Below are positions 28,782 through 44,358 of a DNA stretch of 46,574 nt, one piece after another (position 1 is the first letter of the stretch; every line of letters begins with the position of its first letter). A model generated the notes under the pieces. It worked only from the letters and a program-made list of their open reading frames with translations, was not told the origin of the DNA and made no database searches. The position numbers and the translations under genes are program-made. This DNA comes from Candidatus Zambryskiibacteriota bacterium (GTDB lineage Bacteria > Patescibacteriota > Minisyncoccia > Phycocordibacterales > DATDWN01): positions 1-46,574 of the forward strand of contig JAPLZY010000009.1 in NCBI GenBank assembly GCA_026394775.1, in the 5' to 3' direction.

Positions 28782-28870
28782 TGTTGCTACAAGATATCAC
28801 AGTATTCATTATATTGCAAGGGCTTTATCACCGATAGGTGTATTGCTCTTGGAAGGCCTTAAAAGACCCA

Positions 28871-28879
28871 TGGTATACT
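28871..28879 (+). promoter_or_regulatory. Extended -10 promoter of the Xer recombinase
   Basis: TGGTATACT (28871-28879) ends 9 bp before the ATG at 28889, predicting a leader of only a few bases. Confidence 0.55.
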
Positions 28880-28888
28880 AATGGTTAT

Positions 28889-29905
28889 ATGTCATCTCTC
28901 AAAGCTCTTAAACAACAGTTTCTTGAATATATTGAGATAGAAAAAGGACGGTCTTTAAATACGGTTGAAAATTATGACCGCTATCTTACGCGCTTTTTGA
29001 AATTCATTAAACACGACTCTCCCGCAGATATCACTGACAGTACTATTCGAGAGTTTCGACTCTGGCTCAACCGACAGTCAAACCTACCATGGAAAAGTCT
29101 TGATAAAGACGGAAAGCCTTTGAAAAACCGCGACAAAGGAGAAACATTGTCTAAGAAAACTCAAAATTATTATCTCATTGCCCTTCGAGCGTTCCTTAAA
29201 TATTTGGCTCGTGAAGGAGTAAAGTCTGTGTCCCCAGAGCGTATTGAGCTTGCAAAAGTGAGTGAGCGATCGCTTGACCTTATTACAGGTGCTGAGCTGA
29301 CACGTCTTCGTGAAGCGCCCAAAGGCACAGGTCTTAAGGTGTTGCGAGACAAAGCTATTATGGAGCTTCTTTTTTCGACAGGGCTTCGTGTGTCTGAGCT
29401 CTGTGCGCTGACTGCTGATATAGACCTAAGTTCTGATGAGCTTTCAATTCGAGGGAAAGGAGGAAAGGTTCGTGTTGTTTTTATTTCAGATGAGGCAAAA
29501 AAACATGTAAAAGCATATTTGCTTGCTCGAAAGGACATGGAAGAAGCTTTGTTTGTGCGAATTGGTGTTGAAGGAACAGGGAAAAATACAATGGCTAAAC
29601 CCCGCGAGTCCAAGAGCGGGGTCGCCCGATCCGCCAAGGGCGGATTTAGGGAATCGAGCGCACTCAACCGCCACTCAGTAGAACGGATCATCAGACACTA
29701 TGCGACCAAAGCAGGTCTTTCAAAAAAAGTCACTCCGCATACGATGCGTCACCTGTTTGCTACTGACCTACTTTCAAATGGTGCAGATATTCGCTCAGTG
29801 CAAGCGCTGCTCGGACATTCAAGTATTATTACGACTCAGATATATACACATGTAACTGACAAGCATCTACGAGACATCCATAAGAAATTCCATAGCAAAA
29901 AGTGA
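28889..29905 (+). CDS. XerC/XerD-type tyrosine recombinase with an in-frame insertion
   Basis: From the ATG at 28889 (338 residues, MSSLKALKQQFLEYIEIEKGRS) the protein has an N-terminal SAM-like core-binding domain (about 1-110) and a catalytic domain with FSTGLRVSEL (catalytic Arg), GKGGKVRVVFI (beta hairpin with Lys), HTMRHLFATDLL (His/Arg), LGHSSIITTQIYTHV (His and nucleophile Tyr). All catalytic residues are present, so it should resolve chromosome dimers at dif. About 25 extra residues (TGKNTMAKPRESKSGVARSAKGGFRES) near 230-260 are encoded by GC-rich palindromes. The longer ORF start at 28838 precedes the -10 and is rejected. A dif site was not identified. Confidence 0.92.
   Translation: MSSLKALKQQFLEYIEIEKGRSLNTVENYDRYLTRFLKFIKHDSPADITDSTIREFRLWLNRQSNLPWKSLDKDGKPLKNRDKGETLSKKTQNYYLIALRAFLKYLAREGVKSVSPERIELAKVSERSLDLITGAELTRLREAPKGTGLKVLRDKAIMELLFSTGLRVSELCALTADIDLSSDELSIRGKGGKVRVVFISDEAKKHVKAYLLARKDMEEALFVRIGVEGTGKNTMAKPRESKSGVARSAKGGFRESSALNRHSVERIIRHYATKAGLSKKVTPHTMRHLFATDLLSNGADIRSVQALLGHSSIITTQIYTHVTDKHLRDIHKKFHSKK
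29599..29650 (+). repeat. GC-rich double hairpin inserted in frame in the Xer gene
   Basis: CCCCGC (29600-29605) pairs with GCGGGG (29616-29621), and ATCCGCC (29629-29635) with GGCGGAT (29639-29645). The DNA is much more GC-rich than the gene around it, and the encoded peptide is charged and non-conserved. Confidence 0.7.
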
Positions 29906-29949
29906 TTCTGACACGGCTCTGGTCTTTTTCACCAATCTTATCATACCGC

Positions 29950-30040
29950 GATCCTTACAGGATCAGTACACCTTGTCGATCTTTTGATTACAAAAGCTCT
30001 GACAAGGTCTTGCGAAAGCATATGATGCTTTCTCACTTGG
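29950..30040 (+). repeat. Three-hairpin element, copy A
   Basis: Three helices: GATCC-TTACA-GGATC (29950-29964); ACCTTGTC...GACAAGGT (about 29970-30008) enclosing CTTTTG-ATTA-CAAAAG; and AAGCAT...ATGCTT (about 30016-30030). It ends in TCTCAC. It lies 45 bp after the Xer stop. Copies B and C at 34928 and 43117 share loops but differ in stems. Confidence 0.75.
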
Positions 30041-30067
30041 TAAAAAATTCTCAGAGTGTGGTAATAT
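30037..30067 (+). promoter_or_regulatory. Promoter of exonuclease III
   Basis: TGGTAATAT (30059-30067), an extended -10, is 9 bp before the ATG at 30077. TTGGTA at 30037 is a possible -35 with a long spacing of 19. Confidence 0.45.
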
Positions 30068-30076
30068 CTTTTAGTA

Positions 30077-30847
30077 ATGAAAATCATCTCATGGAACGTA
30101 AACGGGGCGCGAGCGGTTCACAAAAAAGGTAATTGGCAGTGGCTTATTGATCAAAACCCTGATATTTTCTGCTTGCAGGAAACAAAGTCTGAGGCACATC
30201 AGTTACCTGACGAAGTTCGTTCTCCTGTCGGCTATTTTTCATATTTCAATTCATCTAAAATGCGCAAAGGCTATAGTGGAGTAGCGATTTATTCAAAGAT
30301 AGAGCCAAATAAAGTGGAGTACGGCATGGGTATAGAAGAAATGGACCAAGAAGGTCGCCTTGTTGTGGCTTATTTTGATGACTTTGTGCTATTGAACTGT
30401 TATTTTCCAAATGGTGGAGGAGGGCCAGTGCGTCTAGAGTACAAGCTAAAGTTCTACACTCACTTCCTTGAGTTTATTTTGAAACTGCGTAAGAAAGGTA
30501 TGCAGGTTATTTTTTGTGGAGATGTAAATACGGCTCATATGTCAGTTGACCTGGCTCGTCCAAAAGAAAATGAAAAGAATACAGGCTTTTTACCTGAAGA
30601 ACGTGCATGGATAGGTGCTGTGATAAACGCAGGTTTTGTTGATGTGTGGAGAAATAAAAACATAGATGTAAAAGATGCGTATACCTACTGGGATATGAAA
30701 ACATTTGCACGTTCACGAAATGTGGGCTGGAGAATCGACTATTTTTTTGTAGACCAAACACTTCTCTCGTATGTTAAAAACGTATTGATACATAAGGATA
30801 TTTTAGGATCTGACCACTGCCCTCTTCAATTGGACATCGATCTTTAA
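30077..30847 (+). CDS. xthA: Exodeoxyribonuclease III (AP endonuclease)
   Basis: This 256-residue, full-length enzyme cleaves abasic sites and trims 3' blocked ends in base-excision repair. Motifs: ISWNVNGARA (Asn7), DIFCLQETKS (catalytic Glu near 34), GYSGVAIYSK, YFPNGGGG, FCGDVNTAH (Asp and Asn near 150), ERAWIG, WRIDYFFV (Asp) and GSDHCPLQLDIDL (the Asp-His pair). All catalytic residues are present. It is a single-gene unit. Confidence 0.96.
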   Translation: MKIISWNVNGARAVHKKGNWQWLIDQNPDIFCLQETKSEAHQLPDEVRSPVGYFSYFNSSKMRKGYSGVAIYSKIEPNKVEYGMGIEEMDQEGRLVVAYFDDFVLLNCYFPNGGGGPVRLEYKLKFYTHFLEFILKLRKKGMQVIFCGDVNTAHMSVDLARPKENEKNTGFLPEERAWIGAVINAGFVDVWRNKNIDVKDAYTYWDMKTFARSRNVGWRIDYFFVDQTLLSYVKNVLIHKDILGSDHCPLQLDIDL

Positions 30848-34680: not shown

Positions 34681-34720
34681 CACGGGGTGTGGTGTGAACT
34701 GCTAACCTGATTGTTTTGGG
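34681..34720 (+). pseudogene. 5' half of a tRNA-Pro-like sequence
   Basis: CGGGGTGTGGTGT followed by GAACTGCTAACCTGATTGTTTTGG resembles the first half of the intact tRNA-Pro at 34760 but diverges in the D and anticodon arms, and no 3' partner follows directly. It leads into the left arm of an inverted repeat. Confidence 0.6.
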
Positions 34721-34877
34721 GGTAAAATTTAATTTGTTTTTTAAGATTAAGAATAACGTCGGGGTGTGGTGTAACGGCTAACATGCTTGATTTGGGATCA
34801 AGTGACTCCGGGTTCGAATCCCGGCACCCCGACGTTGGTCTGAATCTTTAAATTAAAAAACAAATTAAATTTTACCC
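34720..34877. repeat. 25-bp perfect inverted repeat flanking tRNA-Pro
   Basis: GGGTAAAATTTAATTTG plus TTTTTTAA (34720-34744) is exactly complementary to 34853-34877. Between the arms, AACGTC/GACGTT extends the tRNA acceptor stem outward, so arms and tRNA form one large inverted structure. Confidence 0.85.
34760..34832 (+). tRNA. tRNA-Pro (anticodon TGG)
   Basis: Acceptor CGGGGTG (34760-34766) pairs with CACCCCG (34825-34831). The anticodon stem CTTGA/TCAAG holds loop TTTGGGA, reading TGG. The T arm is CCGGG-TTCGAAT-CCCGG. CCA is not encoded. Confidence 0.94.
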
Positions 34878-34900
34878 AGAAGCGTTTTACGCTTCTGTGG

Positions 34901-35027
34901 CCCGAAGGGAGGTGACTCCGGGTTCGACTCCTTACAGGAGCTGTACACCTTGTTGATCTTTTGATTACAAAAGCTCTAGCAAGGTCTTGCGAAGTGAGGT
35001 CGCTCACTTCTCACCCGGCACCCCGAC
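34901..35027 (+). pseudogene. Duplicate tRNA-Pro 3' half interrupted by the three-hairpin element
   Basis: GTGACTCCGGGTTCGA (about 34912-34927) repeats 16 nt of the intact tRNA-Pro, and CCCGGCACCCCGAC (35014-35027) repeats its last 14 nt. Between them lies the whole three-hairpin element (34928-35013), so the duplicate tRNA is broken exactly within the T loop. A hairpin CAGAAGCG-TTTTA-CGCTTCTG precedes it at about 34878-34898. Confidence 0.75.
34928..35016 (+). repeat. Three-hairpin element, copy B
   Basis: CTCC-TTACA-GGAG; ACCTTGTT...AGCAAGGT enclosing CTTTTG-ATTA-CAAAAG; GAAGTGAG-GTCG-CTCACTTC; ends TCTCAC. Compared with copy A the first and third stems have changed on both arms with pairing kept. 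A U-G pair in the second stem favours the plus strand as RNA. Confidence 0.78.
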
Positions 35028-42394: not shown

Positions 42395-43096
42395 ATGCGA
42401 CTTCATCGATTTTATATTACAGACACAATAGAAGAAAAAAGTGTCATTATTACAAACAGAGACTTGATCCATCAGTGGAGAAAGGTATTTCGATACAATG
42501 TCGGTAGTCAGGTGATTGTATTTAATGGAAGTGGGGTAGACTGTCGGTCGACTATTATGAAAATGTCTGCGTCCGAAGCAGAGCTTTCTGTGCTTGAAAC
42601 AAAAGAAACTCCACCGTCTGGGAAAAATATGTGGCTCTGTCTTTCTTTGATCAAGAAAGACAACTTTGAGCTGGTGGTGCAAAAAGCAGTGGAGCTTGGT
42701 GTAAACAATATCGTACCGATTATTTCCGAGCGAAGTGAGAAAAAGAAAATAAACACAGAGCGTTTGGAGAAAATAATCCTTGAGGCTACTGAGCAGTCAG
42801 GAAGAGGGGAATTGTTGAAAGTTCATCCACTTATGACACAGAGTGAGTTGTTGGAAAGTGAAGTGTTGCCACAAGAGAAAATTTTTTTTCATCCAGGGTA
42901 TCCGCCAATACAAGAATATCTCTCGTCCAATAATACTCAGTATTCATATGCATATTTTGTAGGCCCAGAAGGAGGATTTAGTGAGGAAGAAATTGCACTC
43001 TTTAAAACATATAATGTTTCTGGTTTTTCTTTAGGTCCTCTTATTTTAAGAGCAGAAACAGCAGCGATAGCGGCATCAGCACTATTTTTATTATAA
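42395..43096 (+). CDS. rsmE: 16S rRNA m3U1498 methyltransferase RsmE
   Basis: The 233-residue protein has an N-terminal PUA-like part (HRFYITDTIEEKSVIITNRDLIHQWRKVFRYNVGSQVIVFNG) and a SPOUT methyltransferase domain. The latter has LIKKDNFELVVQKAVELGVNNIVPIISERSE, RLEKIILEATEQSGRGELLKV and YFVGPEGGFSEEEIALFKTYNVSGFSLGPLILRAETAAIAA. Motifs are complete, including the GPEGGFS and LGPLILRAETA trefoil-knot loops. A three-hairpin element follows the stop codon. Confidence 0.95.
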   Translation: MRLHRFYITDTIEEKSVIITNRDLIHQWRKVFRYNVGSQVIVFNGSGVDCRSTIMKMSASEAELSVLETKETPPSGKNMWLCLSLIKKDNFELVVQKAVELGVNNIVPIISERSEKKKINTERLEKIILEATEQSGRGELLKVHPLMTQSELLESEVLPQEKIFFHPGYPPIQEYLSSNNTQYSYAYFVGPEGGFSEEEIALFKTYNVSGFSLGPLILRAETAAIAASALFLL

Positions 43097-43116
43097 AGGG
43101 TATTAAACCTTTTCCA

Positions 43117-43197
43117 CTCCCTACAGGAGCAGTACACCTTGATTACCTGAGTACAGATAATCAAGGTCTTGCGAAGTGAGGTCACTCACTTCTCACC
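43117..43197 (+). repeat. Three-hairpin element, copy C
   Basis: CTCC-CTACA-GGAG; ACCTTGATTA...TAATCAAGGT (10 bp, longer than in A and B); GAAGTGAG-GTCA-CTCACTTC; ends TCTCAC. It starts about 20 bp after the rsmE stop. The inner CTTTTG hairpin of A and B is replaced. Confidence 0.78.
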
Positions 43198-43205
43198 TCA
43201 GTTCA

Positions 43206-43287: not shown

Positions 43288-44358
43288 TTACTTTTGTTCC
43301 TCCAAAAATTTAAATACAAGGTCATTTGCGAGGAATGTCTCGACATACATGCGCACACGGAAACGTTCAGCGTCTTTATACTCTGAGAGGATTTTGTTCA
43401 TTTCTTGTTTCACCACCTCCTCTTCAGGTTTAATGCCTTCATCACGCGCCACAGTGTTGAGGATGATTTGAGATTTTGCTCGCTTTATCGCCGTATCTTT
43501 CCATTCTGTCTTTAAGTCACTTTCTGTTTTTTTGATATGCGCTAAATAGTCTTCAAATTTGATATTTGATTGGGCAAGGTCGTCTTGAAACTGAGCTTTC
43601 ATTTTTTCAAGCTCTCCATCGACAATAACCTGAGGAATTTCTATTGTAGATGCGGTAATAATCTCTTCGAGTACCTGAGTTCGTTTTTTATCTTTTGCTT
43701 TAAAAGTTTTTTCTTTAAGTAAATTTTCTTTTATCCGACTTGTGAGGTCTTCTACTGAAGCAAAGCCACCGATCTCAGAGAGAAAATCCTCATTAACTTC
43801 CGGGAGATGTTCGTCCGTAATCTCGCCATGAGAGTGGTCGTGTTCATCTAGTCCTTCGGCTTCATGCATTTTTGCATGAGCTACATTGGCACGGAGTTTT
43901 TGTATAACATCGTTTACTTCTTTTTCGGTCACTTCAACAGCTTCTTCAGTGCTGAATATTTTTTTTGCGATTTTTGTGTAGTCCCCAAGTTTCACTTCGG
44001 GCATCAGTGCGGTTTTGATTTTAAATCCAAGAGGGTTTCCAAGACCAATTTTAGTGATAATAACTTCTGGTTTACCGATCGGGTCGATCTTGAGTTCAGA
44101 AATAATGTCAGGGTAGACTGCTTCGAGCGCCATTTCCCCAGCTTCTTCAAGGATTTTAATATCTCCAATCTCAGAAATAACTAGATTTTCTGGAGCATTT
44201 CCTTTGCGAAAACCAGGGAGAGTGATCTCTTTCTTCAAAGAATCGATTGCTTGCTTACGCATCGAGCCCATTTTCTCAGAAGTAATTTCACCTGTTATCT
44301 CCACCTCTTGTAGGGGGAGTCGAGTAAGATTTAGGTTTGTATAGTCTTTTTTTGACAT
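43288..44358 (-). CDS. tig: Trigger factor without the PPIase domain
   Basis: The 356-residue ribosome-associated chaperone has the N-terminal ribosome-binding domain (about 1-115) with TLPGFRKGNAPENLV (the GFRxGxxP signature). The C-terminal substrate-binding arms begin near NEDFLSEIGGFASVEDLTSRIKENLLKEKTFKAKDKKR and run to FKFLEEQK. The FKBP-type PPIase domain normally between them is missing; a short His/acid-rich linker (AKMHEAEGLDEHDHSHGEI) replaces it. Most bacterial trigger factors have about 430 residues. It should still bind nascent chains. Confidence 0.93.
   Translation of the reverse strand: MSKKDYTNLNLTRLPLQEVEITGEITSEKMGSMRKQAIDSLKKEITLPGFRKGNAPENLVISEIGDIKILEEAGEMALEAVYPDIISELKIDPIGKPEVIITKIGLGNPLGFKIKTALMPEVKLGDYTKIAKKIFSTEEAVEVTEKEVNDVIQKLRANVAHAKMHEAEGLDEHDHSHGEITDEHLPEVNEDFLSEIGGFASVEDLTSRIKENLLKEKTFKAKDKKRTQVLEEIITASTIEIPQVIVDGELEKMKAQFQDDLAQSNIKFEDYLAHIKKTESDLKTEWKDTAIKRAKSQIILNTVARDEGIKPEEEVVKQEMNKILSEYKDAERFRVRMYVETFLANDLVFKFLEEQK

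Follow-up and report, generated by a model that had tools for sequence, protein, structure and literature searches.

Genomic context of the element

The window analyzed here is the whole stretch of 46,574 nucleotides, in which three copies of a three-hairpin element (A, B, and C) lie on the plus strand. An initial annotation, made from the letters alone, had located these copies and their orientation, and both were confirmed by the sequence and by a covariance model built on nine copies from the same genome. Copy A lies between a gene for an Xer-like tyrosine recombinase (a search of the genome for such recombinases gave 1 match, this one) and one for an exonuclease III-like protein. Copy C is flanked by an RNA methyltransferase gene and an open reading frame (ORF) of the minus strand. 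The spans of the three copies given below are those placed by the model.

28838..29905, plus strand: Xer-like tyrosine recombinase gene, upstream of copy A (Pfam PF00589, 1.2e-37)
29916..30056, plus strand: palindrome hosting copy A, a degenerate family X member (arms approximately 29916-29942 and 30036-30056; outer stem in the fold)
29950..30040, plus strand: copy A, three-hairpin element (sequence; model match 106.4 bits)
29950-29955/29959-29964: first hairpin (H1) of copy A
29970-29977/30001-30008: second hairpin (H2) of copy A, with an inner hairpin
30014-30021/30025-30032: third hairpin (H3) of copy A
30031-30036: TCTCAC end of copy A
30077..30847, plus strand: exonuclease III-like (xthA-like) gene, downstream of copy A (Pfam PF03372)
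34927..35018, plus strand: copy B, within a ghost tRNA-Pro T-loop (model match 101.6 bits)
42395-43096, plus strand: RNA methyltransferase gene flanking copy C (Pfam PF04452)
43116..43200, plus strand: copy C, a variant with a short H2 (model match 77.8 bits)
43288-44358, minus strand: unassigned ORF on the other flank of copy C (ORF list)

The xthA gene directly follows xer in 13 of the 15 family genomes fetched, and none of the 13 relatives with adjoining genes carries the element between the two. Five of these relatives have xer-xthA gaps of only 20-36 bp, compared with 172 bp here (gap lengths were viewed for 10 of the 13 gaps), and the sole model match in the relatives' xer-xthA loci (L287) lies beyond xthA. 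The palindrome that hosts copy A belongs to X, a second palindromic family with conserved internal loops; a search of the genome with one pattern gave 8 X copies. The three-hairpin element is present inside two of them (copy A and L301) and absent from the other six (L302-L307). L303 resembles an empty version of L301, and the element occupies the apical hairpin of X. In two relatives (L293 and L298), the stretch between xer and xthA also contains, by eye, X-like palindromes devoid of the element.

Structure and covariation of the family

The element measures approximately 85-115 bp and consists of three consecutive hairpins with a TCTCA end. Its conserved loops and junctions comprise a TAC triloop, GTACACC, TCTTGCGAA, and a bulged base in H2, and TTAC is conserved in H1. 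CTCA is found near the element end in 88 of 97 copies and is missing from the remaining 9; in 75 of the 88 copies having it, the next letters are CC or CT.

In the 753-kb genome, the genome-wide search with the covariance model returned 14 matches below an E value of 1e-7, copies A, B, and C included, and a 14-base core word occurs 9 times versus 0 for its reversed control. The initial annotation had described stems that differ on both arms with pairing kept, and the stems that it named and their double changes are indeed present. Across the nine founder copies, 95.6% of cells pair, double changes occur at 13 of 28 pairs versus 5.8 in shuffles, and sliding the stem partners destroys pairing. 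The core-word count against the reversed control, together with the double changes against the shuffles, thus argues that the element is not a product of chance.

A larger set combined 80 fetched matches from relatives, mostly the strongest, with the nine own copies, giving 97 matches from 89 sources. In these 97 copies, 93.7% of cells pair, double changes occur at 28 of 28 pairs, and both-side changes number 486 cells versus 116 when shuffled, in an alignment that was fitted to the structure and whose structure counts lean towards the model. The conserved structure proposed from the first three copies is supported by numerous additional copies that covary strongly, and the data point to mobile DNA and not to an RNA element of 3' ends.

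Taxonomic distribution

Further copies were found in relatives: of 61 genomes that comprise its own, close relatives, and others at the level of the order, 43 contain the element. All 17 genomes of its own family carry it, and the highest load among the 61 genomes is 30 matches in one genome. In a phylum-wide sample searched at an E value of 1e-4, it was detected in 6 of the 12 genomes belonging to its order and in 0 of the 274 taken from elsewhere in the phylum. Among the matches listed, the named records are almost all from Ca. Paceibacterota (for example, Nomura-, Zambryski-, Kaiser-, Taylor-, Lloyd-, and Vogelbacteria), and a match in Phocaeicola (L177) failed the covariance model. Viral contigs gave two pattern matches, neither of which matched the model at an E value of 0.001, and a phage origin was rejected on this ground. 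No description of the three-hairpin element was found in the titles and abstract openings of the literature searched.

Insertion in tRNA and rRNA copies

Copy B belongs to a composite locus built around tRNA-Pro, with the following features.

34683..34720, plus strand: ghost tRNA-Pro, positions 1-37 (BLAST of the intact tRNA against its own locus)
34720..34877, plus strand: long inverted repeat with the intact tRNA-Pro at its tip (arms 34720-34744 and 34853-34877; sequence, DNA fold)
34760..34833, plus strand: intact tRNA-Pro (TGG) (ARAGORN; Rfam)
34912..34931, plus strand: ghost tRNA-Pro, positions 43-62, left flank of copy B (BLAST)
35014..35027, plus strand: ghost tRNA-Pro, positions 61-74, right flank of copy B (BLAST)

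The ghost is a broken tRNA-Pro copy whose T-loop holds copy B, between parts 43-62 and 61-74, and the intact tRNA-Pro with its inverted repeat is nested inside this same ghost (34683-35027). The locus folds as a cloverleaf in a cloverleaf (DNA fold z = -10.4). The same pattern was found for tRNA-Ile at another locus (L132, 40-535; z = -11.4), where the intact tRNA lies in the D-loop of a ghost whose anticodon loop and T-loop each bear one element. More generally, an intact tRNA lies at most 300 nt away from 19 of 59 copies, compared with 420 of 9232 random positions. Copies of 5S rRNA that the element interrupts, beside an intact 5S, were also found, at L118 and, by eye, at L064. At L133, two partial tRNA-Ala copies, each adjoining an element, lie near an intact tRNA-Ala. 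A group I intron-like match under the gathering score was seen near an element copy at L060 (500-690).

Insertion in or beside protein-coding genes

In-frame insertions within genes were judged convincing for 3 of 178 distinct copies, among 27 open frames listed. Two of them are found inside mnmA in two genomes (L152 and L198), with an insert of 32 residues, and the interrupted proteins match Pfam tRNA_Me_trans at 3.5e-70 and 1.7e-69, respectively; the third lies inside topA in the other orientation (L088; Topoisom_bac 2.3e-49). The elements of L152 and L198 agree at 94 of 96 bases, and their coding flanks at 322 of 390 and 305 of 390, with 107 of the 153 flank differences at third codon positions. 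The element in mnmA is more conserved than would be expected of a decaying parasite. Relatives of mnmA in viral contigs are distant.

In related species, the element shares one site behind rplK (L157, L170, and L204), directly behind the stop codon and on the opposite strand, as read from the gene in L157 and from homologous flanks in L170 and L204. Persistence at the rplK and mnmA sites hints at a constraint beyond that of a neutral parasite. In the three rplK-site copies, H3 is made from the gene's own last codons.

Flanking repeats and target duplication

Outer inverted repeats above the 99th percentile of the controls accompany 25 of 97 copies versus 3 of 285 controls, and direct repeats scoring at least 14 surround 35 of 166 copies versus 4 of 330 control pairs. 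Recurrence was assessed after repeated rows had been merged into 178 distinct copies, 171 of them with enough flank. The first 16 nt past the element recur in the copy's own left flank in 11 of these 171 copies (0 of 852 control pairs), and 7 of the 171 repeat the end of the left flank on the right side, again against 0 of 852 control pairs; the start of the right flank has no nearby recurrence in 160 of 171. Duplication length ranges from 25 to 211 nt in the 11 recurrence cases, and the native sequence starts with CCC or CTC in 7 of them. At L260, the start of msrA is present on both sides of the element, in stretches of approximately 70 bp, and an intact msrA remains. The start of a GH1 gene is likewise doubled at L261, where the two copies have diverged. 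At L211 and L260, the target and the element start share 7-9 nt. One genome holds near-identical element copies with different flanks.

DNA palindrome or RNA

G-T cells account for 12 of 2159 cells in the element stems (0.56%, five noisy columns having been left out of the count), compared with 163 of 2751 (5.9%) in 127 tRNAs from the same loci, a control that was made with ARAGORN, cannot show A-C pairs, and so controls for G-T only. A-C cells number 22 of 2159 in the element stems, and G-T is no commoner than A-C. A single T-G column is conserved (18 of 65 cells), and it is the column of the U-G pair in copy B that the initial annotation had taken as support for a plus-strand RNA. The pair itself exists, but such an RNA does not follow from it, as T-G is very rare elsewhere. 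The orientation of copies was assessed in loci of at least 2500 bases with genes on both sides, where 59 copies less 12 overlapping an ORF left 47 intergenic ones. Codirectional gaps hold 15 of these in sense and 13 in antisense orientation, and 15 lie in convergent and 4 in divergent gaps; the control gaps comprise 76 codirectional, 19 convergent, and 25 divergent ones. Copies A and C do lie just after plus-strand stop codons (29905 and 43096), but this placement is local and does not extend to a family-wide rule.

Given a roughly tenfold scarcity of G-T pairs relative to tRNAs and an unbiased orientation, the stems behave like DNA palindromes. The reading of the first three copies as plus-strand RNA at the 3' ends of genes is therefore not supported, and a 3' untranslated region or terminator RNA is rejected on the same two observations. 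A functional tRNA intron was also rejected: removing the element and joining the flanks restored no new tRNA in any of the 97 copies with six boundary choices each, and the tRNAs seen after joining were, from their coordinates, either beside the element or artefacts of wrapping the joined piece.

Alternative explanations and proposed mechanism

A structured RNA in many copies, whether a trans-acting gene or a cis element at mRNA ends, would covary because it is functional, and the conserved loops and junctions, the strong covariation, the long persistence at some sites, and the enrichment of convergent gaps (15 of 47 versus 19 of 120) would all suit it. We nevertheless regard this explanation as improbable given the tenfold scarcity of G-T pairs and the balance of 15 sense against 13 antisense copies. 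Furthermore, Rfam gave no element match above the gathering score, the element is inserted in ghost tRNAs, 5S copies, and coding genes, and the relatives lack copy A. A REP/RAYT or IS200/IS605-derived repeat mobilized by a Y1 transposase would agree with the single-stranded DNA (ssDNA) hairpin character and with the conserved TTAC in H1. Y1_Tnp is present in 32 of 43 element-bearing genomes, against only 7 of 18 that lack the element. However, this association is weak and has many exceptions: 11 of the 43 element-bearing genomes are free of Y1_Tnp, including G047 (17 copies), G054 (14), and G008 (13), and the element is absent from G043, which has 6 Y1, and from G035, which has 4. The ends of the genome's own IS200-like gene locus also look different, and an origin of this kind appears very improbable. 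RVT_1 occurs in 21 of the 43 element-bearing genomes and in 7 of the 18 others and was not found in G012, which holds 30 element copies (genome 86% complete), and Phage_integrase is present in 58 of 61 genomes, mostly in one copy. Neither tracks the element, and a reverse transcriptase and a tyrosine recombinase were thus rejected as movers. This co-occurrence test, in which draft genomes can hide genes, yielded no mover, and none of Y1_Tnp, RVT_1, and Phage_integrase is required by it. At L011 (own genome, C8:71746), a RAYT-like gene has G+C-rich palindromes beside and inside it.

We estimate at roughly 60% the probability that the family is a non-autonomous mobile palindromic DNA element of one Ca. 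Paceibacterota order, which enters hairpin loops or abuts sequence starting with CY. Because the candidate movers are not required, a folded ssDNA intermediate is preferred, and the element would move as such a copy. We infer that template switching during replication, or a putative enzyme acting on ssDNA, would link this copy to its target; insertion of this kind would account for target duplications that are both direct and inverted and of variable length. Recognition or copying of the folded DNA form may be what keeps the stems perfectly paired. The hairpins of the family could instead be mere hot spots of template switching, with copies and duplications arising from error-prone repair in the absence of any dedicated mobility. 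Such an origin is in line with duplications that vary from 25 to 211 nt (11 cases) and are both tandem or direct and inverted, with the 7-9 nt common to target and element start at L211 and L260, and with the lack of a transposase association; yet the highly conserved loops and ends and the CC or CT after CTCA (75 of 88) suggest specific recognition, and we consider it unlikely. Returning to the mobile DNA element, a broader proposal may be made tentatively, namely, a transposase-free "copy-and-spare" process in which several families of folded ssDNA hairpins would template-switch into hairpin loops. The same event would duplicate the target directly or inverted and spare an intact tRNA, rRNA, or gene start, and repeated rounds would build cloverleaf-in-cloverleaf loci.

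These observations show that tiny Paceibacteria genomes carry nested palindromic DNA families, whose members break up tRNA, rRNA, and gene copies and spare a working one. They offer a tractable case of repeats that spread without a visible transposase, of palindromic elements entering proteins, and of paired stem changes at the DNA level. They also warn that strong covariation by itself is no proof of a functional RNA.

Comparison with known repeat systems

The element is a real family of a known broad kind, the palindromic mobile repeats, and its nesting and target duplication are unusual. Passages of two reports (PMC10969869, PMC6649704) describe Rickettsia palindromic elements (RPEs) as short palindromic repeats that occur in many copies in small genomes and are tolerated in frame within protein genes as an extra peptide. 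The present element, too, is short, palindromic, multicopy, and in frame in genes (mnmA and topA), and RPEs are, on the best reading of this comparison, probably the closest known system in behavior. It differs from them in consisting of three consecutive hairpins, in its occurrence in another phylum, in its nesting in the loops of other palindromes and ghost tRNAs, and in its flanking target duplications.

REPs are small, 20-40 bp, according to the abstract of one report (PMC3733652). The present element resembles the REP/BIME/RAYT systems in being palindromic, mostly extragenic, and sometimes arranged in inverted pairs (L102 and L132), but it is larger and does not track a Y1 transposase. 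A GTAG or CGTC tag is absent from its ends, as judged by eye in the alignment, and its three hairpins extend over approximately 91 positions. With MITEs and PATEs it shares the character of a small non-autonomous repeat with secondary structure. In contrast to these, no terminal inverted repeats of an autonomous partner were seen, its own ends are by eye not mutual inverted repeats, and its duplications are long and variable (25-211 nt) instead of short and fixed.

Intervening sequences of 23S rRNA are hairpin insertions that stand in place of loops in structured RNAs. The element is likewise a hairpin insert in the loop of a structured RNA, but it is found in duplicated ghost copies of tRNAs and 5S rRNA, in both orientations, and in intergenic palindromes.
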